Both the position numbers and the translations under genes were made by a program. A stretch of DNA of 64,000 nt from Phycisphaerae bacterium. GTDB taxonomy: Bacteria > Planctomycetota > Phycisphaerae > UBA1845 > Fen-1342. The notes beneath the pieces were generated by a model. The model worked only from the letters and a program-made list of their open reading frames with translations. It searched no databases and was not told the origin of the DNA. Shown here one piece after another: positions 31,014 to 50,812 of the stretch (position 1 is its first letter; every line of letters starts with the position of its first letter). The DNA lies in contig JAUIEC010000003.1 of assembly GCA_030428945.1 (NCBI GenBank), positions 434,001 to 498,000 on the forward strand, written 5' to 3'.

Positions 31014-31381
31014 GAGCGCGTGTCCGGAAGGAGCCAGGCGACCTGGTAGATTTCGATCGGATCCCGCTCAGGCGCGTTGTGAAACACGCGAACGGTGATC
31101 TCAGTGGCCAGGACGCCGAACGCCACGCGGGTCGGCTGGACCTCGCGTTGCCAGGACATCGTCTCCGTGAACTTGCCGGTGGCGGGGATCGTGACCGCAA
31201 CGCCGTTGTCGCTCCATTGCCAGAGCAGATCTCGTGTTTGGGCAACGGCGAAGTCGAGTTGCTCCGCCAGGCGGTATTGCTGGGTCGCCTGCATTTGGAT
31301 TCGGACGATCGCGACGCCGAGGCTGGCCAGCAGCGCCAGCGCGACAATCACCTCCAGCAACAACATGCCTGAGCGCCTCAT
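31010..31381 (-). CDS. gspI: Type II secretion minor pseudopilin I-like
   Basis: 123 residues from the ATG at 31381, which overlaps the end of gspH as ATGA and has GGGGG upstream. MRRSG precedes MLLLEVIVALALLASLGVAI, a prepilin-type helix with Glu at +5. The short globular domain (LWQWSDNGVAV, VAFGVLATEITVRVFH) is beta-rich, as in GspI. It would nucleate the pseudopilus tip with J and K. Confidence 0.8.
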   Translation of the reverse strand: MRRSGMLLLEVIVALALLASLGVAIVRIQMQATQQYRLAEQLDFAVAQTRDLLWQWSDNGVAVTIPATGKFTETMSWQREVQPTRVAFGVLATEITVRVFHNAPERDPIEIYQVAWLLPDTRS

Positions 31382-31860: not shown

Positions 31861-32273
31861 TTCAGCTCCCAGCTGACCAGGTCAGCCGCGCCTCCCGTCC
31901 CCCCTTCAAGTCCGTCAGCGCCATAGCAAATCAGGTCGTAGGTACCGTTCAGGCCGGGATAGACGTACTCATAAGGCTTGTTCCACGGATCTTTCAGATC
32001 CCCGCCGCGCAGCAGACCATCCGGGTGGGCATCGGTGCGCTCGGTCAGCACTGCGAGACCCTCTTCGTTGCTCGGGTAGCGGTCCTGCTCAAGGAAAAAG
32101 AGCTCCAAGGCTGACATGATCTGGCTCAGTTCCTGCTTTGCCGCATTCTGCTTTCCGGAAACGAGGTAGTCGCGTACGGCGACGGTGGCCGTGGTGGCCA
32201 GAACCCCCAGAATCACCACAACCACCATGATCTCGACCAGTGTCATGCCTCTGCGCGTTGTCAGGTTGTTCAC
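31857..32273 (-). CDS. gspG: Type II secretion major pseudopilin G
   Basis: 138 residues. The leader ends RRG and the helix starts MTLVEIMVVVVILGVLATTA, with Glu at +5. The characteristic block follows: ALELFFLEQDRYPSNEEGLAVL, then LKDPWNKPYEYVYPG and YDLICYGADGLEGG. The calcium-site region is present, though the C-terminus is slightly shorter than in Proteobacteria. It is the main subunit of the pseudopilus that pushes substrates through the secretin. Confidence 0.95.
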   Translation of the reverse strand: MNNLTTRRGMTLVEIMVVVVILGVLATTATVAVRDYLVSGKQNAAKQELSQIMSALELFFLEQDRYPSNEEGLAVLTERTDAHPDGLLRGGDLKDPWNKPYEYVYPGLNGTYDLICYGADGLEGGTGGAADLVSWELK

Positions 32274-33478: not shown

Positions 33479-35022
33479 TACGAGGCCGTCCATTCACTGG
33501 CCAGGTAGTCAAGTTGCGTGACACGCAGCACTTCAGCCGGCGTCGTCAAGCCAGCCTTGATCTGTCGGATGCCATCCTGTCGAAGCGTTCGCATGCCGTG
33601 CTGCAGGGCCAACTCCCGGATCTGGCTGGCCTGGGCCCGCTGGTGGATCAACTGCCGCACCGGTTGACTGACCTCAATCAGTTCGGTGATGCAGATGCGG
33701 TCGAAATAGCCGGTCTGTCCACACGCCTCGCAGCCCGCACCGCGCTGGTAGGCGAGAAGATCGCGGGCCCGGATCCGGAGATCACGCAGTTCACTCGGAC
33801 TCGGAGCAGCTTCGCTGCTGCACTTGCGGCAGACCTTGCGGACCAACCGCTGCGCCCCGACCGCCAGGAGGGAGTCCGCGACCAAGTAAGGTTCGATACC
33901 GAGATCGAGCAGGCGGGCCACGGCGCCGGGCGCGTCGTTCGTGTGCAGCGTGCTTAGTACGAGATGACCAGTCAGCGAACTCTGGATAGCCAAGCGGGCG
34001 GTTTCAACATCCCGGATCTCGCCGACCATGATGACATCCGGATCTTGCCGTAGCAGGCTCCGCAGGCCTTTCGCGAACGTCATGCCCTTGCGTGCGCTGA
34101 CTTGCGTCTGGCTGATGCCTGGCAGGTGATACTCGATCGGATCTTCAAGCGTCACCACGTTGAGTCGCTGGTAATCGATCTGTTGCAGGGCCGAATAGAG
34201 GGTGGTGCTCTTGCCGCTACCAGTCGGGCCAGTAATCAGGATCATGCCGTGTGAACGTTGAATCAACTCGGCCAGCTTCTCGCGGACATCCTCGGCAATG
34301 CCCAGCTCGGGTAACTCGTACAGTCGGGCGCTCTTGTCCAGTAGACGCAACACGGCTCGCTCACCGTGGGCTGTCGGGATTGTCGAGATACGAAGATCGA
34401 CGATTCGTTCGCCGATTCGGACCGTCGTGCGCCCGTCCTGGGGGAGCCGCTTCTCGGCAATGTCCATCCCGCCCATGACCTTGATCCGCGAGACGATCTC
34501 TTCGAGCATGAAACCACCCGTCTCGAGGTAGTCGAACAGAACGCCATCAATCCTGAGCCGGATCACGACGCCGTCTTCTTTGGCCTGAACGTGCAGGTCC
34601 GACGCCCGCCGTTTGACGGCATCAAAAAGCATCAGGTTGACCAGTTTGATGACGGGTGCACGCGTGGCGTCGTCGAGCAGGTCGCCGTCGGCTTCGAGAT
34701 TCTCGACGTCAACTGCCTCGGGGCCAGCGATCGTCGAGGCCACCTCTTCGATGTCCGTCTGTCGTTGCTGATAGGCCTGGTTAATGGCGGCCTGGATCTC
34801 CTGGTCACTTGCGACCCTGAGCTGCACTTCGCAGGCAAGCGTCAGGCCCAGATTGTCGACTGTGGCCTGTACGGCAGCATCGCTTGCGAACACCTCGATG
34901 ATGTCGGCTTGATCCGTATCGAGCCCAATCAGCGCATGCCGACGGGCGAAGTGAATCGGGATTCGCTCGACGAAGCGTCGCGAGATGCGGTGCAGTTCCA
35001 GGCTGGTGGGTGTGGCGACCAT
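33478..35022 (-). CDS. gspE: Type II secretion ATPase E
   Basis: 514 residues. An N1/N2 region (residues 1-120) is followed by the AAA-like motor. RASDLHVQAKEDGVVIRLRI opens the domain, Walker A GPTGSGKS is at 265-272, and the Asp box lies in VVTLEDPIEYHL. Walker B VGEIRDVETARLAIQ and the His box TLHTNDAPGA follow. The zinc-binding tetracysteine motif is present (VCRKC and GCEACGQTGY). All catalytic motifs are intact. It powers pseudopilus assembly from the cytoplasmic face. Confidence 0.96.
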   Translation of the reverse strand: MVATPTSLELHRISRRFVERIPIHFARRHALIGLDTDQADIIEVFASDAAVQATVDNLGLTLACEVQLRVASDQEIQAAINQAYQQRQTDIEEVASTIAGPEAVDVENLEADGDLLDDATRAPVIKLVNLMLFDAVKRRASDLHVQAKEDGVVIRLRIDGVLFDYLETGGFMLEEIVSRIKVMGGMDIAEKRLPQDGRTTVRIGERIVDLRISTIPTAHGERAVLRLLDKSARLYELPELGIAEDVREKLAELIQRSHGMILITGPTGSGKSTTLYSALQQIDYQRLNVVTLEDPIEYHLPGISQTQVSARKGMTFAKGLRSLLRQDPDVIMVGEIRDVETARLAIQSSLTGHLVLSTLHTNDAPGAVARLLDLGIEPYLVADSLLAVGAQRLVRKVCRKCSSEAAPSPSELRDLRIRARDLLAYQRGAGCEACGQTGYFDRICITELIEVSQPVRQLIHQRAQASQIRELALQHGMRTLRQDGIRQIKAGLTTPAEVLRVTQLDYLASEWTAS

Positions 35023-35028
35023 GATCAG

Positions 35029-37134
35029 CTACTTCATGAACTGGATACGATCAGGTGGAAACCCGTCATCCACGTTCGCCGCTTCGAGATCCTCCTTACT
35101 GATGTACTTGAGATCTTCGAACATCTCGTCGCGCATAACCGTCGGGCGAATGAAGGCATAGAGCCGGACCTTGCTCTTGCTCTTCGAGCGCGTCCCGGCC
35201 AGGAATTCCAGGATCGGAACGTCGCCCAGCCCGGGTATCTCGCTCTCGCTCTCCCCCAGGGTCTCGGTCAGAAGCCCGCCGACCACGACCGTGTAGGAAT
35301 CCGGGACCCGAACGGTACTTGAGATGGTGTCTGAACTGCGCGGCGGCGGCACCGAGCCATCGCCGGCGCCGGTGAAGGAACTGACGGTGATGTCATACTC
35401 GATCTCGACATGATCGCCTTCGGCGATGTGCGGCGTGATCGTCAACTGGGTGCCGGCCTTGGCAAAGCCCGCGAACGAAGTCGTTGCCACCGTGTCGGAG
35501 GCATTAACGCTCGTGAACGGTGATTCGGCAACGCTCTCCAGGCGGCCCGTCGCATTGTCATCTACCAGCAGGCGGGGTGCTGAATACACCTGCGTCTTGC
35601 CGTGCGTCTGCAGTGCCTGCACGATCAGCGGCACCTCGTCCGGTGCGAGCAGAACACCGGTTCCGCCCGGCAGGACATTCAGCATCCGCTGGCCGGTCGC
35701 AGGCGTGATCCCCGACAGCCCGAACGAAGAGAACAGCAGGTAGTCCCACGGATCGCCAAGATCGAGCCCCTGCAGCTCGACACCGAGGTTCAGGCTCTCG
35801 TCGGCACTGATTGAGACCAGCGTAACTTCGACGAGCACCTGTGGCCGCCGCTGGTCCAGCCGTCGGATCAGCTCACTGACTTGGCGATGCACTTCCGGGG
35901 TCGCGACGAGAATGATCGAGTTGGTGTGCTCGTCCAATGACATCGAGAAACCTTCGCCCTGAACAGCGGTCAAGGCCTGGATTGGCTGAACCGCTTGATC
36001 CTGTCCCCGCGACGAGAGTTCCGGGCGAGCAACGGGATCCTCACGTGGCGCTGGCGGGCTGTCCTGAATGTTCGGTTCGCCCAGCAGGCCAGCCAGCGAC
36101 GCAAAAACGTCGTCCGCCCGCCGGTTCATCAGTTGATAGAAGCGCATTGGACTGGCTGCCGCCGCGGGTGCGACATCAAATCGAACCATCAACTGACCGA
36201 TGGCCCGGTGCTGATCTGTCGTAGCAGTGACGATCAGAGCGTTGGTCTCATCGTCGCTGACGATTCGCATCGGCAGTCCGCCGACGAATTCTTCCGCGAG
36301 TCTTCGCACGCGGGAGGTGGACACGAACTCGGCGTGATAAACCTGGGTCGATCGCTCCACCTTGAGATCGAACTCTTCACAAAGGGCCCTGGCCCTGTTG
36401 GCATACGCAGCGCCTCCGATTGCAAGCAAGTCGCCCGAAGCCGGATCCACCTGCAGACTGACCGGCAGAGATGCACTGCCGGTAGGTCCCAGTCGCAGTT
36501 GCTCGACCATCACCCGCGTCACCAGTTCGGCAAGCTCGGCCGGGTCCGCGTTCCTGACCGGGATGCGTGTCACACTCGGAATGCTCTGCGGGCCATCGAT
36601 CAGAGCGGCCATCTCCAGAATCCGCCGTACGTTCTGGGCGAAGTCCGTGATCACGAGAAGATTCCCCTCCGGAATGACCAGGATGCTGCCGCCTGGCTCG
36701 GTCAGAAGAGGCTCGATTGTGGACTGGAGGCGGGTAAGCTCCACGTGCCGGCATGGAAGCACGTAGGAGATCACCTGCGCTCCAGGGACTTCGCTATCCA
36801 ATTCACGCAGTGCTGTTCCGGGGTCGGCGATCTGAAGGGCGATGATCCGATGCCAACCCGCTTGTTCGGCCGGAACAAGCGCGAAGCCGTGCGTTTTCAG
36901 GACGCTTCGCAGCAGTCCAGGCAGCGATTCCATCGGAATCGGATGGGCGAAGGTCAAACTGACCTTCTTGCTGAGCACGGATCGATCGTAGATCAGATTC
37001 AACTCGAGGCTGGTCGCGACATAGTCAACGAACGTGCTCAGTTCGATCTCAGGAGGCAAGTCGATCCGTACCGTCTCGGGAGCCGACGGTGCCTGTAGAA
37101 GCGCAACCAGAGCGACGATGACGGCTGGACGCAT
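35029..37134 (-). CDS. gspD: Type II secretion outer-membrane secretin D
   Basis: 701 residues from the ATG at 37134; the frame is open upstream, but this start begins a signal-peptide-like segment (MRPAVIVALVALLQAPSA). N0 and several N1-type periplasmic domains follow (LVIPEGNLLVITDFAQNVRR; NALIVTATTDQHRAIGQLM; NSIILVATPEVHRQVSELI). The secretin barrel domain covers about residues 470-680, with VLVEVTLVSIS, the GTQLTITPHI stretch and GGLLTETLGESESEIPGLG. It forms the gated outer-membrane channel. No pilotin gene was recognised. Confidence 0.95.
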   Translation of the reverse strand: MRPAVIVALVALLQAPSAPETVRIDLPPEIELSTFVDYVATSLELNLIYDRSVLSKKVSLTFAHPIPMESLPGLLRSVLKTHGFALVPAEQAGWHRIIALQIADPGTALRELDSEVPGAQVISYVLPCRHVELTRLQSTIEPLLTEPGGSILVIPEGNLLVITDFAQNVRRILEMAALIDGPQSIPSVTRIPVRNADPAELAELVTRVMVEQLRLGPTGSASLPVSLQVDPASGDLLAIGGAAYANRARALCEEFDLKVERSTQVYHAEFVSTSRVRRLAEEFVGGLPMRIVSDDETNALIVTATTDQHRAIGQLMVRFDVAPAAAASPMRFYQLMNRRADDVFASLAGLLGEPNIQDSPPAPREDPVARPELSSRGQDQAVQPIQALTAVQGEGFSMSLDEHTNSIILVATPEVHRQVSELIRRLDQRRPQVLVEVTLVSISADESLNLGVELQGLDLGDPWDYLLFSSFGLSGITPATGQRMLNVLPGGTGVLLAPDEVPLIVQALQTHGKTQVYSAPRLLVDDNATGRLESVAESPFTSVNASDTVATTSFAGFAKAGTQLTITPHIAEGDHVEIEYDITVSSFTGAGDGSVPPPRSSDTISSTVRVPDSYTVVVGGLLTETLGESESEIPGLGDVPILEFLAGTRSKSKSKVRLYAFIRPTVMRDEMFEDLKYISKEDLEAANVDDGFPPDRIQFMK

Positions 37135-37135
37135 T

Positions 37136-38182
37136 TCATTTGCCCCGGGCCGTTTGATCGCCCCGCGGTTCCACGACCGCGCCTCGGATCGGAATGACCG
37201 CCTTGACTTCAACATCACCCTCAAGGATCTGGACTTGCATGCGGCCTTCGATTCGGCCGAGGACTCGGCCGGCAGCAGAAAACCGAATCGACGTCTCCCC
37301 TGGAGATCGGCGCACTTCGAGCAGGCTCAAGTCGTCGTTGCCTCGAAGTGACACACGACCGATTCGCGAGGTTGTACCGTGGATGATGCTGAAGCCTTGT
37401 CGCTCGACAGTTCCGAACGACACCTGCCCAAAGTCGATCAACTGGTCTTCTGATACCGTATCAGCAGTTGCCGTTGCAAAGATCGGCAGGCGGATCCGCG
37501 GCACCTCAACCGATGTGGTCGTAACCCAGACCGTTGGTCGAAATGCGCCGGACTCAACCGCCTGCTGAAGAAGCACCTGCACGCGTCCCGGCTCACCTGC
37601 CGCGACGCGACTGGACGTTACGGTACATTCCAGACGTGGATCATCGGGTTCCGCTGCGAGAATCTCGAAGCCGGCATCTTCGATGGTGTGCACGCCGACA
37701 TTGGCGACTACCGGCGTGTGACCGTCGCCCCTGAAGATACCCAGCGAGGCAAAGTCCGGTTCGCAGAACACCTCCGGAACCACACGATACCGAACTGGCA
37801 CGCTGACCCGGATCCCTGGCTCCGTGGTCAGCCAGACGGAACGTCGGACTTCGTCGATGTAGTCGCAGGTTTCAAGCCGAATGTGCCAGATCCCTGATGC
37901 GCCCGGCTCCACCTGCAACTCGGGGACCTGACCGCTGAGGCAGACGCAGTCCGAACCCGTACCACAAACGCGAACCGCCTCCGAACTGGTGTTGCTGAAG
38001 CGGATTGTACGTTCAAGCTCAGCAAAAGGCCGCACCTGCCCGAAGTCGATCGCAGCCGTGGTTGGCACCAGTTTTGAGTCCGCGACCCCCACGGGAGCGA
38101 GCAGGCCCAGGAAAAATCCGAGTACTGCGGCCTTCGCGGCGGGTTGCAGACCCCGTCTCGTTTCGCTATTCATAGATTTCAA
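37136..38182 (-). CDS. DUF1573 exported protein in the secretion operon
   Basis: 348 residues (the ATG at 38173 is an alternative). A signal peptide covers roughly residues 4-36, ending in GVADS. ATTAAIDFGQVRPFAELERTIRFSNTS is an Ig-like DUF1573 domain, repeated around SEDQLIDFGQVSFGTVERQGFS. Two Cys pairs (VCGTGSDCVCL) lie in the first. DUF1573 proteins are abundant in Planctomycetes and Bacteroidetes and are thought to be envelope Ig-like modules. It ends one base before the gspD start, so it is co-transcribed; a role in secretion or substrate binding is inferred from position only. Confidence 0.82.
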   Translation of the reverse strand: MKSMNSETRRGLQPAAKAAVLGFFLGLLAPVGVADSKLVPTTAAIDFGQVRPFAELERTIRFSNTSSEAVRVCGTGSDCVCLSGQVPELQVEPGASGIWHIRLETCDYIDEVRRSVWLTTEPGIRVSVPVRYRVVPEVFCEPDFASLGIFRGDGHTPVVANVGVHTIEDAGFEILAAEPDDPRLECTVTSSRVAAGEPGRVQVLLQQAVESGAFRPTVWVTTTSVEVPRIRLPIFATATADTVSEDQLIDFGQVSFGTVERQGFSIIHGTTSRIGRVSLRGNDDLSLLEVRRSPGETSIRFSAAGRVLGRIEGRMQVQILEGDVEVKAVIPIRGAVVEPRGDQTARGK

Positions 38183-39395: not shown

Positions 39396-39962
39396 GTGCG
39401 CATTGCCTGCGTATTCCTGATGTTGTTCGTGGTCGGCTGCGCTAGCCGCGACCTGGAATCCATCGATCCACATCGACAACGGATGCGGGCCGAACGACTT
39501 CATAACGATGCGCTCGATCGAGTTGAAGCGGGTGAAGCGCAGGCAGCCGAACAAGCGCTCCGGGCCGCGATTGATGCCGATCCGTTCCACGGCCTTGCGC
39601 ACGCGAATCTCGGTGCACTGCTGCTCCAGAAGCGCGAACTCTACGAGGCGGCCTGGCACCTGCGCTACGCCGCGAAGTTAATGCCGCGGGCGAGCCAACC
39701 GCGAGCCAACCTCGGCCTGCTATACGCAACCGCTGGTCAGGCGGACAAAGCCGAAGCGCAGTTGCGTGAAGCACTTGAGTTGAACCCGACCGACTTGGAT
39801 GTGGTTGGGCATCTCGTTCGTATTCACATCCGGTACGACCGGATTACCCCTGAAACAGAAGGTTGGTTGCAGCGGCTCGCCGTCGAGGATCCCGATCCTG
39901 GCTGGCGGGCATGGGCTGCTCGTCAACGCACTCGAATTGCATCCCAAGGAGCGATTCCATGA
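39396..39962 (+). CDS. TPR-repeat lipoprotein
   Basis: 188 residues from a GTG at 39396, with CGGAG upstream. The signal peptide MRIACVFLMLFVVGC ends in a lipobox, so Cys15 would carry the lipid anchor. Three tetratricopeptide repeats follow: NDALDRVEAGEAQAAEQALR, ANLGALLLQKRELYEAAWHL and ANLGLLYATAGQADKAEAQLREALELNP. TPR lipoproteins act as assembly or pilotin-like factors in the envelope. It overlaps the Rhs gene by 4 bases (ATGA), so it may assist export or display of that protein. The last 40 residues are less regular. Confidence 0.88.
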   Translation: MRIACVFLMLFVVGCASRDLESIDPHRQRMRAERLHNDALDRVEAGEAQAAEQALRAAIDADPFHGLAHANLGALLLQKRELYEAAWHLRYAAKLMPRASQPRANLGLLYATAGQADKAEAQLREALELNPTDLDVVGHLVRIHIRYDRITPETEGWLQRLAVEDPDPGWRAWAARQRTRIASQGAIP

Positions 39963-42900
39963 TGGCTACGCGGACACAGATCTCGTATGCGCTCGTTTTT
40001 GCCACTGCCCTGCAGGGGCTCCCCGCCATGGCTGCCGACATTGCGGCAGATGCAGCCGCTCCAACCGGCATCGGGGCCGCGCTGCTGCCACCTGGCGCTG
40101 TCGAGGCCGACGGATCTGTCTTCCTGACGCATCGGGATCTGACCATTCCGAGTATCGGCTCGCCCGCTGTCACGTGGTCTGCAGCCCGTCGGTACTCGCA
40201 GTTGAGCAGCATCGGCGACACGGTTCAGGGCCAGGAGTGGCTGCACGGCTACATGGACACGCTTACGCTGGCGACTCCGGGCAGCGCGTCAACGAGCGAC
40301 GTCACGTGGTCCGGTGCAAGCGATGACGAGGTGTTCTTCTCGAACACCGCCAGCTACACTTATGCCAAGTCCGACGATTCGCAGCGTTTGACGCTGGCGC
40401 ACGAGCACACCGGTGATCCGGCGGATACGTTCCGGATTTCGTCGTCCAACGGCCATTACATGGTCTTCTACGACCACGAGCACTCGACGACGGCCTATCG
40501 TCTGAGGCTCTTCCGCATTGAGGATGAGTCGGGGAATCGACTGGAGATCACACTCGACAGCTCGACCGGACGAGTCGACTACATCACCGATCCCTCCGGG
40601 CACTACTTCCGCTATAGCTACGTCTCGGGCGGCGACAATGATGGCAAGCTCGACTACATCAGGGTCTTCAAGAGTTCAGGCACGGCTGACGCCGATCTGA
40701 TTGCTCGCATCGATTACACGTACAAGGCCAGCGCCGATGGGAACGACTCCGGCGTCGGAACGACCGGCGACCTGATCCAGGTCGACGTGAAGACCCACAA
40801 AACCGATGAAACCGGTACGACCTTCGCGATCCAGCGGACCGTCTACTACCGCTACTACAAAGATGCAGACAGCGACGGCAACGATCATCAGCTCAAGATG
40901 GTCCTGGAACGCGAGCACGCCAATCGAGCCGAGGATGCCCTCGGTAACGTCCTGACCGAGACTGACGCGAACGTCGACGACTACGCGACCTACCTGTTCG
41001 AGTATGACGGCAATGACCGGGTCTCGGAGATGATTGCCGCATCCGCCTCTGCGGGCGGCTGCGGAGGCTGCGGTGGTGGCAGCGAAGGGACCTTCACGTA
41101 TACGTACAGCACGCAGTCGAGCAGCAGTCGCAACGACTGGGTTATTCGGGCCAAGATCGACCACAACGGCACGACCCGCTACGTGCTGCTGAACGACTGG
41201 GACGAAGTGCACAAGGCAGTGCTGTTGACCGATGACTCGGATCACTCCGACCCGATTTGGGCGGTTGAGTATGTCCGCGATTCGACGTCCGGGCAGATTA
41301 CCAGCGTTTACACGCCGTCAGCGATCAGCGATTTCAACTCATCGACCAACGCTTTGACCTACGTTAACGACGGACTGGTTCGCGACTTTACCTGGGATTC
41401 GTCTGGTTCGGCTCTTGAGAGCGTCCGCGTTCGGAAATACTCCCAGGCTACCTCGGCCGCGCTGTACGTGCAGCGCTACAGCTACGAGGATGCCCCGACT
41501 GGCGTTGCGACGTTGGCCCCGCGACGCGTAATGGCGAAATCGCACAGCTACCCGACTGGAACGACTGACCCGAACGACACGTCTCGGACGGTCACGACCT
41601 ACGACTACGCGTATCACACGGACTCGGGCGATCTGGACAGCGATGCCAACACATCGGAAGAGACAACCCGGATCCTGGTCCGTGAGACGACACATCCGAT
41701 TGTCTCGACCGGCCAGAACGGTTCCGGCGTGGCCGCAACGGAGTATGAGTACTTCGACACTGAAGGGCGTGTTCGCTGGCAGAAGGATGCCGAGGGCGTC
41801 GTCTCGTACCGCAGCTACGTCGATCTGACCGGGCAATCCGCATACAGCGTCACGGATGTCTATACCGGGGCCACCGAGGGCGACATCAGCCCGAGCGGGA
41901 TAACGAGCCCCGAGCAGGCCTCAAGTGTCGATTTGTGGGCTGATTGGAGCGGGGCTGCGCCAAAGGACGCGGCGGCGTCTCCAGCGTACGACTTCCAGAC
42001 AACCGGGTCTGCAAGCAGTTACCTCCAACTCGCGACCAAGCGAGAGTTTGACCTGCAGGGACGCTTGCGCAAGTCGACAGATCGTGCCGACCGGGTCAGT
42101 TACCGCGCGTATCTCGATGGCGAAACGAGGACCTATTCGCCTTGGGATGCGACGACCGACAAGCCACTTGTCCCAGCGCAGCGGCAATTGGTCGATCATG
42201 GTGGTCGCCCGATTGAGACGATTGCCGTCGATCCGACTTCGGTCACGTTCTCGGATCCTCCCACCGGGGCAGAGACCTTGACGAATCAGGCCTACTGGGT
42301 TTCCTGGAGCAAAACTGATTACGATTCCTCGCTTCGCCGGTCGACCTTAAAGGACTACCACGACATCCCGAGCAGCGGCGACGGAAGCGACGGGACAAAC
42401 TACTACACAACGACGTACACGTATGCGAGCGATTCAACTGCTCGGACGGAATCGAGCACGGTTGAAGATCCCGAGGACGGTTACCGCAGAACGACCTTCA
42501 ATCCAATCGGCAAGCCGCTCGAAGTCGAAATGACCGCAACGGAGTCCAGCGGCAGCCCGACGAGCTGGAAGACGGTCACTGAATACTTCTACGATCAGGC
42601 AACCCCGGGAACCGGCGTGTCGAAGGGTGGCCTTGGCAACGTCACGCAGGTCAAGAGCTACTACGCGGACGCCGGCTCCAACAGCACATCGATGACGTAC
42701 GACTGGCGCGGCCGCCAGATCTTCGACGGCCCTCCAGCCGGCCCGAAATCGCTTCGCAAATACGACAACCTGGATCGCGTCGTTGCCGTTGGCACCTTCG
42801 AGAACTCCGAGAGCCTGAGCGTCAGCGACGATCCCGAGACAAAAACAAGCGGACGCCTGGCCCTGTCAGAGACGGGCCACAACGACCGGGGCCAGCAGTA

Positions 42901-45900
42901 CGAGACCGTTCGCTGGGAGATCACAGCATCCACTGGTGCCAAGGGAGCTGACTTGGTCACCAGTTACTACTACGACCGCGTTGGTCGCTCGGTGGCCGTC
43001 GTCGCACCGGGAGCCGGTGCCAGCATCACGCGATACGACGCTGCGGGCCGGAGCGATCGTCAGTACAAGGGCCTGAGCCTTGGTAGCACGATCTACGCTG
43101 CGGGTGGGAAGTTCGCCTACGGCAGCGACAACGAGGTGATTGAGTGGACGGACATGGAGCTGAACGATGATGGTCAGCCCGAGCAAGTCCGCAGGTACGA
43201 ACTGGAGTCGGCTTCGAACACGACGCTCGATCCAGCCTCCGCCACGACGAATGCTCTGGTCACCTTTGTCAATCACTGGTACGACGACGTTGGCCGTCGC
43301 AAGCAGACCAGTAATTACGGTTCGAATTCAAACAACGGCCTCGACGGTCCGATGAACTCCGACTTCCCGTTCCAGCAGGAACCGAGCTACATCGCCGGCT
43401 CACCGCCGGCCGCTTCCGACACAGTTCTGACGACAAAGTGGGCCTACGGAAGCGACGGCCGGCTCGAGACTGTCACGAATGAAGACGGGATCGAGACCGA
43501 CTACGAATACGACGATCTCGGCCGGCAAACGGCGACGATTGAAGATGTCGGCGGGATCGAGCGCCGTACCGAGACCCAGTACAACGGCAACTCCGACACA
43601 ACCCAGCTGATCGCCAAGGAAGTCGGCGAGTACGACAGCGGCAATCCCGGTGACGACGACCAGGTGACGGAGTACGTGTATGGGCACGCAGTCGGATCGC
43701 GCTGGGTGACCGAGATCCGTTACCCTGGCTCCGACGGCCAGCCGTCCACGGCTTCGGCCGACAAGGTCGTCTTCGCCTATCACCATGATGGCACGGTTAA
43801 CACGAAGACGGATCAGAACCAGACGACAATCACTTATGAGTACGACACGCTGCGACGCAAGACGCACGAACTTGTCACGACGCTCGGCACCGATGTTGAT
43901 GGCGACGTTCGCCAGATTGCCTGGGTGTTCGATGACTCCGGACGAACCCAGAAGATCACCAGCCGCGACAGTGCCACCAAGGACGGCGGAAACGTGGTCA
44001 ATGAACTGGCGTACACCTACGACGGTCTGGGCCAGCTCACCAAGGAAGAGCAGGAGCATGATGGTGCCGTCGACGGCAGCACGCTCTCGGTGCAGTACGC
44101 CTACGACGTCAGCGCCTCAAGCAGTGACAACCACAGCCGGCTGGACTACATCACCTACCCGAACGGCCGGACGATCTACTCGCGCTATACCCATTCCGAC
44201 GCCGCTAGCACCAAGCAGGATGAGGTCGCTGACGCGTTCAGTCGGGTTGCGCAACTCTCCGAATCCTCAACGACCGATATCTACGCTGAATACACCTTCA
44301 CCGGCCTGTCTCGCCTGGTCCGCCGGGCCAGCGAATCCGGTTCCGGCTGGCGTGGCAATGACACGATCTTGAACTACGATTCCGGCACGACGGATGAGTA
44401 CGACGGGTTCGATTTCAGCGGCCGAACTGTGGATCAACTGGTGGAAGACGACGCGGGAACCACCACCCACGAGCAGATCCGGTACGAAGCCGAACGGGAC
44501 GGCAGCCCCAAATTCGCCGACCGCCGGATCAGAATTATGGCTGGTCGCAGCAACATCTACGCGTATGATGACCTGCGTAGAATGACGTCAGTGAAGACTG
44601 GGCTGCTCGAAACCGATCAGTCAGGCATCCAGGCCGACCTCGGTACCCCGAGCGAAGTGACGTACACGATGGACGTTCTCGGCAACATCACGTCTCTCGA
44701 CCGCAAGAACTCGGGCGTCAGCGCGACCGAGACCCGTGTCTACAATGCCACGAACGAACTGACCAGCCGGACCGTCAACGGTGAGGCTCCGCGCTATTGG
44801 GTTGAAGACACCTATTCAGACGACGACAAAGAAGGCTACGCGATCGCTGACCTTGACGGCGATGGGATCACCACCAGCGGTGACGATGGCACCTGGTCGG
44901 CCACTTCCGGTTCGATGAAGTGCAGCGCCACCATCTCCGAAACCGGTGCCCCGGACGGCGGCACAGGCTCAATCCTGCTCGTCAGGCTGGCCGAGTATCA
45001 GGACATCAAGATCTCGGCCGAAGCCACGCTCACGACTGGCTGTGACAATGTCGGCTTGGTCTTCGGCTACGAAGATGAAGACAATTTCTTCGCCAAGATC
45101 TATTCCCTGACGCAGCAGAAATGGCTGCTCTATGAAAAGAGTGCGGGCACCTGGAATCTCCGCGACAGTGCCAGCAAGACAATCACGTCCGGCACCTCGT
45201 TCATCATGAGGGCAACCGTGCATGCCGGCAGTGCTGACGGCTACAGCGCCACGGTCCCTGCCGGGCGAGTTGGCCTCTGGTCATCCGACAGCTCGAACAA
45301 CGAAGTCGACTGGTTCCGGATCCACGACACCAGCGGCAACTACGTTGCTGCCGCCGGCTGGCACAGCCAGCAAGGTGATGCCGAGATCGATTCCGGTCAG
45401 TTCAAGATCAACCAGTCCGGCGACGACTCCGCTGCGAACCAGGCAGCGATCTATATGCCGTTCCGCGGCGAGAAGTACACCGCCGAATTCGACTTCGTCT
45501 GGCAGGCCGACACGAACAACAAAGTCAGCCCGGGTTGCGTGATCCACCTTCAGGATTTCAGCAACTACATGGCCGTTTACCTTAAGAAGGCCAACGGGGC
45601 CTGCATGCTCGACAAGGTCGTCGATGGATACCAAACCAACGTCGTTTCCGGGTCGAGCGTGTCGCTGACCAACGGTCAGACGTACACGATGCAAATCGCG
45701 ATCACCGATGCACCGGTCTATCCCGAACTGCAGGTGCTAAGCGTCAAAGTCGATACCGACCAGGACAGTTCGTTTGCGGACGAAACGAATCTCGTCAGCA
45801 GCTATGCTGGCGGAGTCGACGACACCTGGCCGGCCGGATACTTCGGGTTTTTCCGCGAAGCTGGGCTGAGTGCGACGCAGGCATTCGACAATCTCGATAT

Positions 45901-47125
45901 CTGGATCGACTCGGACGACGATGGCAACCAGGACGATCAGGCCGTCAGCTTGGATTTTGCTTCCAACGCTGTGAGCTTGAGCTACGATGGAAACGGCAAT
46001 CTGACTGATGATGGTATGTATGGTTACTCGTTCACCGCATGGGGGCGCAGTAGCGAAGTCTCATTATCCGGAAACCAGTCTATCGGTGCAAATGCGTGGT
46101 TCGGTAATGGAGGTAGGTCCCAGGAATCGAGCCACGCCCGCGGCCAAGAGGTCCAGAGCAATGACGGTGGGAACCGTGCGTTGACGTACTACTTGAGTGC
46201 AGGTCGTCATGTAGAAGTTAGGAACAGTGACCTTTCGCAAGTGTGCGGGCAGTTCTTGCTTGGTGGAGGTCGAGTGATCTGGCAAGAAACCAACGGTGAC
46301 CCTACTATCTCAATAGATACAGACCCTGACAATACTGCTTCTGGGGAATCTGGCGAAACCCCACCCGACGCTCGTGTTTTTGTCCTAGCTACGGGCAGCG
46401 AGGCATTATTGACTAATGGCACCGATGACAGTGACCGATTGACAAGTGACGGACGTCTCGTCAGCATCAACGGCTCCTCGCGCGCGTCCTGGGCATTTGC
46501 CCAGAATGTGTTGCAGGTGGATCACCCCGTCCAGCCAATAGAGCCTCCGCTTGTTCAGGGAATGGCGCACCAGCCAGAGAATCCGACGCCATGGGTGGGC
46601 TGCCCGTTCACCCCGAAACCTGCCCCGCAAACACATACTCAGCCACTTAATTTCGTTCGGGGATTCTATCGTTGTCGGGTGTATGTTACTTTCGTCCCTC
46701 AGCGGGAGACGGGTCCCACAGCTCGATGCCCCGCACCGACACCGAATGTTGAAGGCTGGTGGCAGCACAACGCGAACCTGTTTCCCGTCGATATGGGGGT
46801 CGTCTTGGTGCACAACGGATCGCCCCCATACGCTGCCGGCCAAGGTTTGTTTGGCCAGTGGGGTTACTCTCCGACGAGGAAACAGAACCTGACGCACCTC
46901 ATTGATTGCCCTTGCTGTGGTGCCACTGAATCAGGCGTAGAACAGCGGTGCGCGTGCGTGGAAGACCGGATCAACTGGGAGGTGACCGTTACGGGAACCT
47001 GTATATATAGGTCCCCGATCGCAAGCCCGCAAGCACACACGATTATTAATCGAAGCGCGCTGTTGGAGACAACCAATTACCGTGATTGGCGAAAAGCCTG
47101 TAATGACTGTGTCTGTGTTCATTGA
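39959..47125 (+). CDS. Giant secreted Rhs-repeat protein with a divergent C-terminal tip
   Basis: About 2388 residues; the ATG at 39959 has AAGGAG 8 bases upstream. A Sec signal peptide ends near AMA-AD (residue 25). Many YD repeats run through residues 150-1600, for example LRKYDNLDRV, ITRYDAAGRSDRQY and YEYDDLGRQ. GGCGGCGGGS near residue 365 is typical of planctomycete Rhs proteins. Residues about 1615-1990 contain two LamG/laminin-like blocks (VGLVFGYEDEDNFFAKIY; AEFDFVWQADTNNKVSPG). The usual Rhs core end (DPETGLYxYRxRYYDP) is absent. After YYLSAGRHVEVRN the tip (about 320 residues) is Cys-rich (DCPCCGATES; CVEDRINW; ACNDCVCVH) and its codon choice looks less G+C-rich. A toxin tip is inferred, not shown. 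Confidence 0.9.
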   Translation: MMATRTQISYALVFATALQGLPAMAADIAADAAAPTGIGAALLPPGAVEADGSVFLTHRDLTIPSIGSPAVTWSAARRYSQLSSIGDTVQGQEWLHGYMDTLTLATPGSASTSDVTWSGASDDEVFFSNTASYTYAKSDDSQRLTLAHEHTGDPADTFRISSSNGHYMVFYDHEHSTTAYRLRLFRIEDESGNRLEITLDSSTGRVDYITDPSGHYFRYSYVSGGDNDGKLDYIRVFKSSGTADADLIARIDYTYKASADGNDSGVGTTGDLIQVDVKTHKTDETGTTFAIQRTVYYRYYKDADSDGNDHQLKMVLEREHANRAEDALGNVLTETDANVDDYATYLFEYDGNDRVSEMIAASASAGGCGGCGGGSEGTFTYTYSTQSSSSRNDWVIRAKIDHNGTTRYVLLNDWDEVHKAVLLTDDSDHSDPIWAVEYVRDSTSGQITSVYTPSAISDFNSSTNALTYVNDGLVRDFTWDSSGSALESVRVRKYSQATSAALYVQRYSYEDAPTGVATLAPRRVMAKSHSYPTGTTDPNDTSRTVTTYDYAYHTDSGDLDSDANTSEETTRILVRETTHPIVSTGQNGSGVAATEYEYFDTEGRVRWQKDAEGVVSYRSYVDLTGQSAYSVTDVYTGATEGDISPSGITSPEQASSVDLWADWSGAAPKDAAASPAYDFQTTGSASSYLQLATKREFDLQGRLRKSTDRADRVSYRAYLDGETRTYSPWDATTDKPLVPAQRQLVDHGGRPIETIAVDPTSVTFSDPPTGAETLTNQAYWVSWSKTDYDSSLRRSTLKDYHDIPSSGDGSDGTNYYTTTYTYASDSTARTESSTVEDPEDGYRRTTFNPIGKPLEVEMTATESSGSPTSWKTVTEYFYDQATPGTGVSKGGLGNVTQVKSYYADAGSNSTSMTYDWRGRQIFDGPPAGPKSLRKYDNLDRVVAVGTFENSESLSVSDDPETKTSGRLALSETGHNDRGQQYETVRWEITASTGAKGADLVTSYYYDRVGRSVAVVAPGAGASITRYDAAGRSDRQYKGLSLGSTIYAAGGKFAYGSDNEVIEWTDMELNDDGQPEQVRRYELESASNTTLDPASATTNALVTFVNHWYDDVGRRKQTSNYGSNSNNGLDGPMNSDFPFQQEPSYIAGSPPAASDTVLTTKWAYGSDGRLETVTNEDGIETDYEYDDLGRQTATIEDVGGIERRTETQYNGNSDTTQLIAKEVGEYDSGNPGDDDQVTEYVYGHAVGSRWVTEIRYPGSDGQPSTASADKVVFAYHHDGTVNTKTDQNQTTITYEYDTLRRKTHELVTTLGTDVDGDVRQIAWVFDDSGRTQKITSRDSATKDGGNVVNELAYTYDGLGQLTKEEQEHDGAVDGSTLSVQYAYDVSASSSDNHSRLDYITYPNGRTIYSRYTHSDAASTKQDEVADAFSRVAQLSESSTTDIYAEYTFTGLSRLVRRASESGSGWRGNDTILNYDSGTTDEYDGFDFSGRTVDQLVEDDAGTTTHEQIRYEAERDGSPKFADRRIRIMAGRSNIYAYDDLRRMTSVKTGLLETDQSGIQADLGTPSEVTYTMDVLGNITSLDRKNSGVSATETRVYNATNELTSRTVNGEAPRYWVEDTYSDDDKEGYAIADLDGDGITTSGDDGTWSATSGSMKCSATISETGAPDGGTGSILLVRLAEYQDIKISAEATLTTGCDNVGLVFGYEDEDNFFAKIYSLTQQKWLLYEKSAGTWNLRDSASKTITSGTSFIMRATVHAGSADGYSATVPAGRVGLWSSDSSNNEVDWFRIHDTSGNYVAAAGWHSQQGDAEIDSGQFKINQSGDDSAANQAAIYMPFRGEKYTAEFDFVWQADTNNKVSPGCVIHLQDFSNYMAVYLKKANGACMLDKVVDGYQTNVVSGSSVSLTNGQTYTMQIAITDAPVYPELQVLSVKVDTDQDSSFADETNLVSSYAGGVDDTWPAGYFGFFREAGLSATQAFDNLDIWIDSDDDGNQDDQAVSLDFASNAVSLSYDGNGNLTDDGMYGYSFTAWGRSSEVSLSGNQSIGANAWFGNGGRSQESSHARGQEVQSNDGGNRALTYYLSAGRHVEVRNSDLSQVCGQFLLGGGRVIWQETNGDPTISIDTDPDNTASGESGETPPDARVFVLATGSEALLTNGTDDSDRLTSDGRLVSINGSSRASWAFAQNVLQVDHPVQPIEPPLVQGMAHQPENPTPWVGCPFTPKPAPQTHTQPLNFVRGFYRCRVYVTFVPQRETGPTARCPAPTPNVEGWWQHNANLFPVDMGVVLVHNGSPPYAAGQGLFGQWGYSPTRKQNLTHLIDCPCCGATESGVEQRCACVEDRINWEVTVTGTCIYRSPIASPQAHTIINRSALLETTNYRDWRKACNDCVCVH

Positions 47126-48144
47126 TTAGCAAATCGGCACAATACGTGATCGCCTTGATCCTCGGCGCAGCAATCGCGATAGCGTCTTACCCCGCACAGG
47201 CTTCATTGCATGCGGCCTGTGCGGCTTTTTGTGCGGGCGCAGTAATCAGACATACGTCATTTCTTGGTGCTGCTGGCCACCTTGCTTTGGCGTGCCTGCC
47301 CTTCGCGGTGTTGTACCTTGCAGCTGGAAAGGCTGGCGCAGCAATGTCGAACATGGCTGTCTTCTTTGTGTCAGCAGGCACTGGCGCTATGGTGTTGGGG
47401 GCGTTGCTCGCGAGGCCAGATCGGGCTTCGAAGCGGCACCTAGACACACTTTCGTGTTGGCATTGTGGCTACTCACTAGTAGGTTGCTTATCAAGGCGGT
47501 GTCCAGAGTGCGGGGGCAAGCTCACCCAGCTGGAACGCATCAGTGCTGCTCTGGGGCCTACGGAGGTCTTGGGTCGGAAGCCGGTCCGCGGACGTTTTAG
47601 CGGGCGAGCCTCAGCGATTGCGGTTCTGATTGCAGTCTTTCTTTGGGCTCTCGCCGGCTGCATGCGCGGGTCCTGGGCTACGTCAAAGAGGGAGACAGAC
47701 GAGCTGATGGCGAAAATCGCTTTGGCCACAAAGATGATCTCCAGTCACGCAGCATATCACGACGCGGCTCGTGCCTTTGAAGCGACCATCCATCCTGTAG
47801 ACGCGACGCGCCGGGCGATGCACGAACTTGACCGGGCCTGGGCGCAATCGCTGGTCCAAGTCCCACTCACACCTGATGACGATACATGCGCTGTAAGGCC
47901 TTTCTTATTGAAAGGGCTATCGGCTATGCCTAGCGACCTCGCAGAGGCAGAGAAATGCCTGATTGCTGCTCGTGACAATGCGGCCGATGATCCGCGGCTG
48001 ACGATGTGGATTCAAAAAGCGTTGGAATACCTACCAGCCGCACGCCACGCGGTGAATGAAGACTATAGACTTCGCGCGAATGGCATCGTGCGGGGTGTCT
48101 TTCTTGAGCTGATTTCGCGATGCGACGAACACGACGACAGGTGA
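47122..48144 (+). CDS. Zinc-ribbon membrane protein overlapping the Rhs gene (candidate immunity)
   Basis: 340 residues starting at a TTG (47122) that overlaps the Rhs stop by 4 bases. Two or three membrane helices (residues 8-100) are followed by a zinc ribbon, CWHCGYSLVGCLSRRCPECG, characteristic of planctomycete membrane proteins. A further membrane helix follows (AIAVLIAVFLWALAGCM), then a helical domain of about 140 residues. Stop-start overlap with a polymorphic Rhs tip is what immunity genes usually show, and immunity to pore or envelope toxins is often membrane-bound. No immunity family is recognised, so that role is inferred. A structural partner of the Rhs protein is the alternative. 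Confidence 0.68.
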   Translation: MISKSAQYVIALILGAAIAIASYPAQASLHAACAAFCAGAVIRHTSFLGAAGHLALACLPFAVLYLAAGKAGAAMSNMAVFFVSAGTGAMVLGALLARPDRASKRHLDTLSCWHCGYSLVGCLSRRCPECGGKLTQLERISAALGPTEVLGRKPVRGRFSGRASAIAVLIAVFLWALAGCMRGSWATSKRETDELMAKIALATKMISSHAAYHDAARAFEATIHPVDATRRAMHELDRAWAQSLVQVPLTPDDDTCAVRPFLLKGLSAMPSDLAEAEKCLIAARDNAADDPRLTMWIQKALEYLPAARHAVNEDYRLRANGIVRGVFLELISRCDEHDDR

Positions 48145-48468: not shown

Positions 48469-49785
48469 ATGTACGCGGCTGGTCGCGGCGGCGGACCGCA
48501 CGCGAGTCTTAAGGCTCTTTCGGTCTTGGAGCTATCAGCGAATCCCCTACCATCGGGCTGGATCGATCTCTCAAAAACGGCCAGGCTGGATGACTTTCGT
48601 CGCATGGTCTCCCAGGTGCAGGGATCATCGGAACACTTCGAGGCCAAAGTGATCCTGGTGGGGCGTGGCCGAGTCGGAAAGACATGTTTGCTTGACGCCT
48701 CGCGAGGACGAGTGCCACGGCAAAACCAATCGTCGACCGAGGGAATCGACATTGAGAGAATTCCAATTGTCGGCACCCATCAAGGACGGCCAGTTACGCT
48801 CAACTTCTGGGATTTCGGTGGCCAAAGTAAGTATGAAATCACGCATCAGTTCTTCTTTACACCAGACACAGTGTATCTCGTGCTCTGGGAACCTCGTACA
48901 GGTCCTGAAGCTGTGGAGGCGTGGCTGGAACTCATCCATCAGCGCGTCGGGCCTTCCGCTCGCGTAATACTCGTCAAGTCCCACGCTGTCTCAGATGATC
49001 GCTCAATTGATCTTCCCCGGCAGGACCTCTTGGAGCGATATGGTTCGATGATCAGCGGCTTCTTTGAAGTCGACACATTCGTCGAAGACTCCCGAGGCAA
49101 CCGCCACGGAGTGAACGCGCTGCTTGCACGGATTGCGGAGTTGGCGTGTTCGTGGCCCCACTCGATGCCGCCTGACTGGATCGATGCTCGCACGGCCATC
49201 CGTGAGCTGGCAGATTCTTGGATTACCATAGACGAGTTCCGGCGAATCACTCGATCACGTGGTTTAGACGACGGCGACTCGGCGACCCTCTTGCGACTAA
49301 TGAACATCCACGGACATGTCGTGTCGTACGACTGGACACCATCCGATTTGGAAGGCACTCGGGCAATACTCGACGAGATCGTGGTCCTCCGCCCCGAAGA
49401 CTTAGCTAAGGCAATTGGTTTTGTGCTTACCGACCCAGCGGTGAACCAAAACAGGGGTGTCCTAGAGCACACAGAACTAGCAAGAATCTGGGCCGCGAGG
49501 CAAGATCCGCCAGTCTTCCCACGAGAGATTCACGTTGATCTCGTCCGATTGATGGAGCGATACGACGTTTGCCACCGCCTCCGAGACCATCACGGCCGAT
49601 TTGTCCCTCGGAGCCTCGTACCGCAGTTGCTCGGAGCCGTGCAAGAACCAGCTAATCTGCCTTGGTCTCCAGGCCAACAGAGCGACGGCATCGCAACGGA
49701 AGTGAATGTAGTCGTCTCGCCGCAAAGCGAACTTCGCGGGCTGTTTACCCTTGGCAATAGCTCGGCTCCATCCCTATTGGCGTGA
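48469..49785 (+). CDS. Roco-family GTPase, N-terminal fragment (Roc domain and start of COR)
   Basis: 438 residues in this frame. ALSVLELSANPLP near residue 15 looks like the last leucine-rich repeat. The Roc GTPase follows: P-loop LVGRGRVGKTCL near 62, switch II FWDFGGQSKYEITHQFFF and the VKSH element at the NKxD position. The COR domain begins around residue 230 (ITIDEFRRITRSRG; LMNIHGHVVSYDWT; LDEIVVLRPEDLAKAI). The frame ends in LFTLGNSSAPSLLA. The expected continuation, LAIARLHPYWRDEHWHW, is in the overlapping downstream frame, so the gene is probably broken by a one-base shift near 49750. Codon use is more A+T-rich than in neighbouring operons. Confidence 0.82.
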   Translation: MYAAGRGGGPHASLKALSVLELSANPLPSGWIDLSKTARLDDFRRMVSQVQGSSEHFEAKVILVGRGRVGKTCLLDASRGRVPRQNQSSTEGIDIERIPIVGTHQGRPVTLNFWDFGGQSKYEITHQFFFTPDTVYLVLWEPRTGPEAVEAWLELIHQRVGPSARVILVKSHAVSDDRSIDLPRQDLLERYGSMISGFFEVDTFVEDSRGNRHGVNALLARIAELACSWPHSMPPDWIDARTAIRELADSWITIDEFRRITRSRGLDDGDSATLLRLMNIHGHVVSYDWTPSDLEGTRAILDEIVVLRPEDLAKAIGFVLTDPAVNQNRGVLEHTELARIWAARQDPPVFPREIHVDLVRLMERYDVCHRLRDHHGRFVPRSLVPQLLGAVQEPANLPWSPGQQSDGIATEVNVVVSPQSELRGLFTLGNSSAPSLLA

Positions 49786-50812
49786 CGAACATTGGCATTG
49801 GCGACATGGCTCGATCCTCAAGTACGGAGAGCACGGTGATGCTTTTGTTTCCCTGAGTGGCAAAGATCTACACCTCACAGTAAGGGCAGAGTATCCTCCT
49901 TACTTCCTGCATATACTAATCGACAAGGTACGCACTCTAATCACAGATGTTTGGCGTAACGTTGAAGAAGGTGCAGAAGACGGATTCCGAATATGTGCAC
50001 CGTGCGACGCTGCTCCGGCGTGCCCGGGGCGGTTTGAACTGGATTGGCTTACCGACATGTTGCGCGAAGGACTAGCAATGGTACTGTGCCCCGAGAAGCA
50101 GTGCCGGAAGCCCCTTGAGATTGCGAGACTTCTTCATGGATACACGCCCAGACCGGGCGTGACGGCTGATGGAGCGCTCAGTTCGTTCCGCACCATCCTC
50201 GCGCACGAGTTCTACCGGCACCGACAGTTCCAGTTACTAGAGTCTCACGAGACCCCGCCCCGGTGCACACTCATCCCACAAAGAGCGTCAGTAACGGAGC
50301 ATACGTATAGGCTCACGTTGTGGTGCGATTACCCAGGGCGACCACACCCATGCAGCCCGATCTGGAGCGATGGCCCCGGCGACTTCGAAATCGTCTGCCC
50401 AAAGGACGTGCTGGAGGCCGCACGGAGAACGATTAGTTGGACCTTGGGTCTCCTGGGTCCAATCGCCGCAGCGGGGACCCTGGCCGTGGAGATGTGGTCG
50501 AAGGATGGAGCTAGTATCGAGGAAGCATTGACATGGCTTTCATCGTGCGTGAAGACATCAGATACCGACCCAGAGCGACATAGCGACGCCCCGCTTCCCA
50601 TTGGCTTGCAACGTATTGCCGCGGAAGGAGACGAAGCTCGAAGATTCCGAGAGTTTCTGCGAGAGCACGTGAAGGGCAAAGGCTGGGGTAACCTGCGACG
50701 TTTCTCGCCTCGGCCAGAAGAGGTGCTCTGGCTCTGCCCCGAACACTATGCCGAACTGCAGCAGACACCGCCACCTATGCCATCAGGCTACCTGGAGGGC
50801 GGCTGTTCCTGA
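49751..50812 (+). CDS. Roco-family GTPase, C-terminal fragment (COR continuation and extension)
   Basis: 353 residues from a possible TTG at 49751. AIARLHPYWRDEHWHWRHGSILKY is the usual second half of a COR domain, which reads '...GLFxRLIxRLHxxWxxGxxL' in intact proteins. Here the first half lies in the upstream frame. FRICAPCDA and CPEKQCRKPLEI are Cys-containing linker elements, and VPC-like ends of COR are visible. The last 200 residues (ARRTISWTLGLLGPIAAAG onward) resemble no family I know. It could be an independent coupled protein, but homology across the junction favours one split gene. No classical slippery heptamer is seen at the junction. Confidence 0.7.
   Translation: MAIARLHPYWRDEHWHWRHGSILKYGEHGDAFVSLSGKDLHLTVRAEYPPYFLHILIDKVRTLITDVWRNVEEGAEDGFRICAPCDAAPACPGRFELDWLTDMLREGLAMVLCPEKQCRKPLEIARLLHGYTPRPGVTADGALSSFRTILAHEFYRHRQFQLLESHETPPRCTLIPQRASVTEHTYRLTLWCDYPGRPHPCSPIWSDGPGDFEIVCPKDVLEAARRTISWTLGLLGPIAAAGTLAVEMWSKDGASIEEALTWLSSCVKTSDTDPERHSDAPLPIGLQRIAAEGDEARRFREFLREHVKGKGWGNLRRFSPRPEEVLWLCPEHYAELQQTPPPMPSGYLEGGCS

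Follow-up and report, generated by a model that had tools for sequence, protein, structure and literature searches.

We asked whether an Rhs gene that ends in a cysteine-rich tip, is overlapped at its stop codon by a membrane protein gene and adjoins type II secretion system (T2SS) genes could be part of a toxin/immunity unit with its own export machinery. The locus lies in a 64,000-nt stretch of DNA from a Phycisphaerae bacterium, which is called the window here. The following genes were assigned (window coordinates, strand, basis):

25358–27112, minus: sensor histidine kinase, far end of the T2SS run (NCBIfam histidine kinase matches, best E 1.2e-45, below the equivalog cutoff)
27399–32273, minus: GspL-like gene (27947–29200), pseudopilin-like G, H, I, J and K, and two small unnamed genes (NCBIfam, Pfam, position)
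32270–33493, minus: GspF (PF00482, E 3.6e-51; TIGR02120, E 5.5e-93, below its cutoff)
33478–35022, minus: GspE ATPase (PF00437, E 1.7e-128)
35029–37224, minus: GspD secretin (PF00263, PF03958, PF21305)
37136–38182, minus: DUF1573 protein (PF07610, E 2.9e-9)
39396–39962, plus: TPR lipoprotein like PilW (TIGR02521, E 1.6e-16, 60.6 bits against a cutoff of 154; junction sequence)
39959–47125, plus: Rhs/YD-repeat protein gene, 2388 aa (ORF call, Pfam, family profile against solved Rhs proteins)
47122–48144, plus: candidate immunity protein gene, 340 aa, TTG start (membrane segments, zinc ribbon, membrane segment, helical C-terminal domain)

The window thus holds a run of T2SS genes, in which GspD, GspE and GspF were recognised by Pfam and the pseudopilins mostly by position and by eye. 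The GspL-like gene scored 63.3 bits with TIGR01709 (cutoff 65), GspJ had a weak PF11612 match, and the names of the remaining pseudopilin-like genes rest on position and on leader sequences judged by eye. An earlier reading of the locus, made from the sequence only, had placed the Rhs gene downstream of this operon. The two are indeed adjacent, but the T2SS genes lie on the minus strand and diverge from Rhs, with the PilW-like gene in between. The stop codon of the PilW-like gene overlaps the Rhs ATG by 4 nt (ATGA), and the lipoprotein is a possible secretin pilotin.

The Rhs protein itself gave one Pfam match, to RHS_repeat (PF05593), at 23.3 bits barely above the cutoff of 22; the same family was matched by 6 of 8 Rhs relatives. 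The whole-protein scan returned nothing else, so that no PAAR domain was found, NCBIfam gave no family, and phmmer with the single window sequence found no solved structure. A profile built from the 8 relatives matched the solved Rhs structures 8cp6 and 7q97; against the structures of Tse5 and RhsA its whole-sequence E values were 5e-10 and 4e-8, with no single stretch passing alone. Judged by eye, the N-terminus looks like a signal peptide. In viral contigs we found no relatives of the family (46 pattern matches, none related). The core-terminating cleavage motif of Rhs proteins (RDP...DPxGL) was absent, as the sequence-only reading had stated, from the window protein and also from its paralog when a strict regular expression was used. 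The same expression matched 17 of 25 related Rhs C-termini (a hand-picked set, seven of them from the relative G011 and two being the copies of the window genome), although one of these matches (G084a) is a mis-hit in the tip, with the motif visible by eye further up, and three of the eight misses (G083, G011d and G020b) carry close variants by eye.

Where the constant part of the protein ends became visible from a second copy of the locus in the same genome. Three features follow from this comparison:

24960–46015, no strand given: block running from the T2SS operon into the Rhs body, with a second copy in this genome on contig C17 (blastn)
45970–46378, plus: breakpoint (about 45970–45990) and diverged core end, residues about 2005–2140 (amino acid identity to the paralog 0.94 falling to 0.46; DNA alignment)
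46379–47122, plus: orphan Cys-rich tip, residues 2141–2388 (composition; homology searches)

The two copies of this 21-kb block, which comprises the T2SS genes, the PilW-like lipoprotein and the Rhs body, are 85.7% identical over 21,077 columns (blastn). The Rhs bodies share 94.4% of their amino acids and the parts beyond them 46% and then 22%; along the alignment, identity stays at 0.94 as far as residue 2010, is 0.46 for residues 2010–2140 and drops to 0.22 after them. Because identity falls in steps, we take residues 2010–2140 as a diverged core end and place the start of the orphan tip at about residue 2141. Differences between the bodies at the three codon positions are 0.043, 0.023 and 0.308, and both bodies are under strong purifying selection. 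The genes that follow the two Rhs copies are unrelated, a 156-aa exported-looking protein in the paralog and the 340-aa zinc-ribbon protein in the window. Thus a constant body is joined to an exchanged C-terminus and an exchanged next gene, and the expectation that tip and partner should vary together while the repeat region is conserved holds between the two copies; the diversity of tips and following genes among relatives agrees with it as well. The divergence that had been placed after about residue 2048 is real and sharp, but paralog identity moves the swap point to about residue 2005–2010. It could be objected that the second copy came from another strain or species by faulty assembly or binning, as the genome is assembled in 33 contigs. 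We consider this extremely improbable: both copies sit inside contigs of about 0.5 Mb, reported contamination is 0.77%, and even then the swap of tip and partner on a conserved body would still hold, between two close genomes.

We then examined the tip. Cysteine makes up 6.0% of its last 200 aa and 0.4% of the body, as expected from the sequence-only reading, and GC3 drops from 0.66–0.81 before position 45959 to 0.51–0.61 after it (300-nt bins). The lower G+C had been taken as a trait of this tip; the drop is genuine but not peculiar to it, for GC3 was lower than in the body in both the tip and the next gene at all 25 related ends, the body values being rough for 9 of them (ORFs of 468–801 codons with a 'body' of only 18–351 codons), while among 202 control ORFs, called by codon bias and some perhaps spurious, the next ORF was lower than the preceding gene in 110. 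In a search of 392 genomes of the phylum, the window tip recovered itself and, at no better than E 9e-4 to 1e-2, seven other sequences, four of them containing stops; no convincing relative of either copy's tip was found in the genomes searched. The window tip had no match in plasmids, no Pfam family and no match to a known toxin family, and 100 relatives yielded neither the tip nor the partner of the paralog. Nowhere among the 392 genomes did we see one tip kept in several species beside different partners, which would argue against a paired unit. The single-sequence AlphaFold model of the tip had a mean pLDDT of 38, and therefore no fold search was made with it. As a separate matter, a frameshifted core end was rejected as the origin of the odd tip, as by eye the other frames over 46103–47400 contained no conserved Rhs end.

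The loss of the core-end motif, the lower GC3 and the lack of tip homologs could also mean that the end of the Rhs gene is decaying, so that core end and tip are degenerate sequence with no function. This is very unlikely, since the frame stays open for about 378 codons beyond the break and reaches the next gene at a 4-nt overlap, and since low GC3 is shared by related ends that keep the motif.

The gene after Rhs had been described as overlapping its stop codon and encoding a zinc-ribbon membrane protein, and both points stand: its TTG at 47122 overlaps the TGA stop by 4 nt, and the product has 4 hydrophobic segments and a CxxC...CxxC ribbon. NCBIfam gave no family for it, PADLOC none for six proteins, and neither tip nor partner matched a known toxin or immunity family in searches that included PADLOC, NCBIfam and Pfam. 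Its single-sequence structure model had a mean pLDDT of 57, with block means of 81–96 over residues 251–340 only, and Foldseek against PDB returned no match below E 0.3, the model being usable only in the C-terminal helices. The ribbon pattern occurs 23–69 times per genome in 8 genomes and homologs of the partner's ribbon region are present in 91 of 101 genomes; the module is common in the group and therefore cannot carry specificity.

Is such a gene found after Rhs ends more often than elsewhere? We compared the 25 ends with the 202 controls, taking as next gene the longest ORF whose start fell between −60 and +350 nt relative to the stop, so that start codons are uncertain. Ends cut by a contig end or by the fetched stretch (L038, L107, L117, L119 and the last L036 and L037 fragments) and one with an early-truncated tip (L041) were excluded; L112, L114, L128, L148, L152, L153, L157 and others also lie outside the set, which includes at least one Rhs of a different kind (IP29b17, no T2SS nearby, 0% Cys). 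Cysteine exceeded 3% of the last 200 aa in 21 of 25 Rhs ends and 25 of 202 controls. A hydrophobic segment was present in the next gene in 20 of 25 versus 76 of 202 (P 7e-5), the five without one being G044, G011b, G011c, G084a and new56, and a strict zinc ribbon in 7 of 25, several from the single genome G011, versus 3 of 202 (P 8e-6). The next gene of G084a has a lipobox, and some others have signal-like starts by eye. Given how widespread the ribbon is, the tip might be an exported effector while the zinc-ribbon gene has no immunity role and belongs to a large family of planctomycete membrane proteins often encoded nearby. We think this quite unlikely in view of the enrichment over controls and the overlap with the Rhs stop. 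The survey yielded no pair of homologous tips whose partners also resemble each other outside the ribbon, which would prove cognate pairing.

Among the 25 tips, known families were limited to one Ntox44 and one DUF6973, and an HExxH motif was present in 8, which suggests enzymes. These motifs bear on another explanation, in which the T2SS exports Rhs as an adhesin or recognition protein of the cell surface. Its variable Cys-rich end would then attach to changing ligands or help to escape phages or grazers, and the membrane gene would be an anchor or sensor rather than an immunity protein. Some relatives do match concanavalin-like and dockerin families (1 of 8 members each), and known toxin domains are missing from almost all tips. 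We nevertheless regard an adhesin as doubtful: besides the enzyme-like motifs, each exchange of its tip would not require a new neighbour gene.

For the toxin/immunity reading, the linkage to secretion genes is the remaining element. An Rhs gene adjoins this GspD subtype in 8 of the 15 genomes carrying that secretin, and in 5 genomes the secretin had enough flanking DNA and no adjoining Rhs. Counted from the other side, of the 24 Rhs loci in named genomes, 10 have T2SS genes nearby (five on the same contigs as in the GspD–Rhs count) and 12, several on short contigs, show neither T2SS genes nor a PilW-like gene. The T2SS–Rhs linkage is thus conserved in many relatives. It is not described among the literature matches listed, which is weak evidence of absence as these cover few subscription papers or preprints. 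In the relative G011, five Rhs C-terminal fragments follow one another, and the four complete ones differ in tips and next genes, as orphan C-terminal cassettes would. In the genome of the window itself, a search with the Rhs body gave the two full copies only, and no such cassettes.

The recurrent T2SS linkage, the abrupt swap of tip and partner, the orphan cassettes in a relative and the composition shared by tip and partner lead us to favour, as moderately probable, a polymorphic Rhs toxin/immunity unit that has its own, genetically linked T2SS. From these observations we infer toxicity, immunity, the export route and a periplasmic site of action as parts of the following model. The Rhs protein would be exported by Sec and then passed outward via the linked T2SS, whose GspD would probably have the PilW-like lipoprotein as its pilotin. 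The Cys-rich tip would fold in the periplasm, probably stabilised by disulfides, and act there as a variable effector, and the next gene would encode an inner-membrane protein that shields the producer and its kin. The specificity of the partner would reside not in the widespread zinc ribbon but elsewhere, with the helical C-terminal domain as the likeliest place, and new tips may arrive with their partners through recombination near residue 2005. More tentatively, at slightly less than an even chance, Planctomycetota may hold a system dedicated to antagonism. In it, a T2SS with its pilotin would be coupled genetically to a single giant Rhs carrier, orphan cassettes would supply exchangeable tips that are rich in disulfides and act in the periplasm, and many of the immunity proteins would be built alike, from a membrane anchor, a cytosolic zinc ribbon and a variable extracytoplasmic domain.

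Constant bodies with a swappable C-terminus and immunity gene, and orphan C-terminal units beside the main gene, are familiar from enterobacterial orphan Rhs and CDI cassettes. The present loci share these traits (the orphan units being those of G011) and differ in the export route and in next genes that are mostly membrane or exported-looking proteins. T6SS Rhs effectors such as Tse5 and RhsA have the YD-repeat body in common with the window protein, whereas in the latter no PAAR domain was found, the core-end cleavage motif is absent, and the linkage is to T2SS genes. In the part of their survey that concerns us, Zhang et al. (2012, PMC3482391) describe RHS polymorphic toxins with a long RHS stalk, a variable C-terminal domain and a neighbouring immunity gene, list their export as T2SS/Sec and name planctomycetes among the carriers. 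For T2SS, no signature neighbour genes appear in their table, and the authors describe only other systems as dedicated. Stalk, variable C-terminus and neighbouring candidate immunity gene recur here; the difference from what that table records is that Rhs adjoins a PilW-like gene and a T2SS operon that looks complete.

If this reading is correct, a T2SS would be added to T5SS, T6SS and T7SS, the systems that serve as dedicated carriers of polymorphic toxins and are genetically linked to them, and this in a phylum where weapons used between bacteria have received little study. The planctomycete T2SS subtype would gain a concrete substrate, part of a large uncharacterised family of zinc-ribbon membrane proteins would gain a candidate role, and many orphan Cys-rich tips, some of them zincin-like, would become available for testing.

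In the Rhs protein of the window (source assembly of 33 contigs, 5.5 Mb), Pfam recognizes one RHS repeat, barely above the cutoff, and a profile built from eight relatives (alignment A1) gave whole-sequence matches to Tse5 and 7q97, two Rhs proteins of solved structure. Its gene, its partner (the next gene) and the upstream type II secretion (T2SS) genes are arranged as follows.

GspD, GspE, GspF, pseudopilin-like genes, a GspL-like gene and a histidine kinase: minus strand, directed away from Rhs
TPR lipoprotein, closest to PilW (TIGR02521, E 1.6e-16, under the equivalog cutoff): between the T2SS genes and Rhs, same direction as Rhs
39959-47125, plus strand: Rhs gene, 2388 aa
47122 (TTG start, within the Rhs stop), plus strand: partner gene

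The stop codon of the PilW-like gene and the Rhs ATG overlap as ATGA, with AAGGAG seven bases upstream of the ATG; in seven relatives the distance from this stop to the first possible Rhs start ranges from -3 to +356 nt. Elsewhere in the window, a run of type I restriction-modification-like genes was recognized by eye (4489-11469, plus strand), and a Roc-COR GTPase (48469-50812, plus strand) is apparently split into two overlapping ORFs in different frames, possibly through a frameshift or as a genuine split:

48469-49785, plus strand: Roc and COR-A
49751-50812, plus strand: COR-B

The Rhs body was matched in 24 of 101 genomes and GspD strongly (E < 1e-70) in 15. Rhs adjoins this GspD in 8 of the 15 (G000, twice; G004, G007, G017, G020, G044, G071 and G083); in G084 and G069 the contig end is too near GspD to judge the neighbour, and the flanking stretch examined around GspD held no Rhs in G065, G073, G081, G091 and G093. 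Scanning named species genomes yielded 24 Rhs loci, one from Armatimonadetes, one from a MAG labelled 'bacterium' and the others from planctomycetes. T2SS genes lie close to ten of them (one with GspE only; five of these lie on contigs that the 101-genome count had included), a PilW-like gene alone, near a contig edge, was seen at two, and 12 have neither. These counts with and without T2SS neighbours show an association that is widespread without being obligate. Across loci, lower identity of GspD to its window counterpart goes roughly with lower identity of Rhs. At five loci (L120, L121, L122, L124 and L125), this T2SS subtype and the PilW-like gene are present, but the adjacent genes are of various other kinds, with no Rhs among them. 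Many relatives also contain a second, distant secretin match (e.g. G046:C1, G072:C1) within open frames of 4,000-5,000 codons, so frames of this length may lie antisense or belong to very large genes.

The same genome holds a second copy of the block on contig C17, which matches window positions 24960-46015 with 85.7% identity over 21,077 columns and stops matching inside the Rhs gene. The two Rhs bodies share 94.4% amino acid identity (2010 codons), and their differences at codon positions 1, 2 and 3 (0.043, 0.023 and 0.308) show that the body is under strong purifying selection. Beyond the body, identity falls to 46% (128 codons) and then 22% (230 codons), with DNA-level similarity fading near a GNLTDDG stretch. 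The paralog Rhs is followed, after a 20-nt gap, by a 156-aa exported-looking gene, and the zinc-ribbon gene is absent there. Thus, the expectation of the sequence-only reading, that tip and partner change together while the repeat region is conserved, was borne out between two copies of one genome. Neither the paralog tip (200 aa) nor its partner had a match in any of 100 relatives. A search of 392 genomes of the phylum with the window tip recovered, apart from the tip itself, seven weak matches (E 9e-4 to 1e-2), four of them interrupted by stops, and the non-self matches listed for the window partner reached at most 36 bits, lying around the ribbon in those inspected. Both secretin frames appear open, a TAG in the paralog being upstream of the likely start. 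A 223-bp stretch (56053-56275) has a 96% identical inverted counterpart near the second copy on C17. Left of the block in the window are a ParA-like gene (15518-16321) and a XerD-like recombinase gene (20133-21092), and the right flank of the paralog (L035, L043) carries, by eye, transposase-, ParB- and TraD/TraG-like genes; the two copies may reside on mobile islands.

Tips and partners were compared for 25 Rhs ends chosen by hand. Cysteine averaged 5.9% in the last 200 aa versus 0.64% in the bodies (tip higher in 24/25) and exceeded 3% in 21/25 ends versus 25/202 control ORFs. Mean GC3 fell from 0.82 for the bodies to 0.55 for the tips, and the next genes averaged 0.56; all 25 tips and all 25 next genes lay below their bodies, compared with 110/202 controls in which the next ORF lay below the preceding gene. 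Few tips matched Pfam (one Ntox44, one DUF6973, one AMOP, one weak HTH_23); HExxH occurs in eight, the window tip not among them. In all-against-all BLAST of the tips, similarity was mostly confined to the shared core end. The tips of one pair, G011g and PLA19, may belong to a common family; both partners bear ribbons but match each other nowhere except near the ribbon and the second membrane segment.

Hydrophobic segments were found in 20/25 next genes versus 76/202 controls (P 7e-5), and strict CxxC...CxxC ribbons in 7/25 versus 3/202 (P 8e-6), several ribbon-bearing genes belonging to one genome; three further next genes (G011e, G011f, G020b) have related ribbons by eye. The partner of the Planctomycetota end PNC22 repeats the order of the window partner: membrane segment, ribbon, membrane segment, C-terminal domain. 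Because ribbon patterns are frequent genome-wide (23-69 per genome in eight genomes), the zinc ribbon looks like a shared module. Contig C45 of G011 contains five successive Rhs C-terminal fragments, arranged as orphan cassettes, the fifth truncated where the contig stops. Each of the four complete fragments has a different tip, and the genes that follow encode, respectively, a lipoprotein-like protein, a WD40-like-repeat protein (by eye; WD40 matched 1/25 partners), a protein of 395 aa and a membrane protein with a zinc ribbon. Contigs end inside Rhs genes in several other assemblies, e.g. G007, G017 and G020.

T2SS linkage, joint exchange of tip and next gene, selection on the body and composition are direct observations. 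We propose that Rhs would be exported via Sec and the T2SS. The T2SS takes its substrates from the periplasm; the Cys-rich tip would fold there, and immunity would for this reason be located in the envelope, with partner specificity probably in the helical C-terminal domain. The window Rhs lacks the core-end motif (RDP...DPxGL), so the usual cleavage is not expected and the tip may remain attached to the body. Our guess is that the tip is an extracytoplasmic enzyme or binding domain. Zhang et al. 2012 (PMC3482391) regard T2SS/Sec as the route by which polymorphic toxins are most often exported, give no signature neighbour genes for it and reserve 'dedicated' for the other systems. Among the titles and abstract openings listed in a literature search, none describes a pairing of T2SS operons and Rhs in Planctomycetota. 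We regard the locus as a new form within the polymorphic Rhs toxin systems, with a putative toxin.
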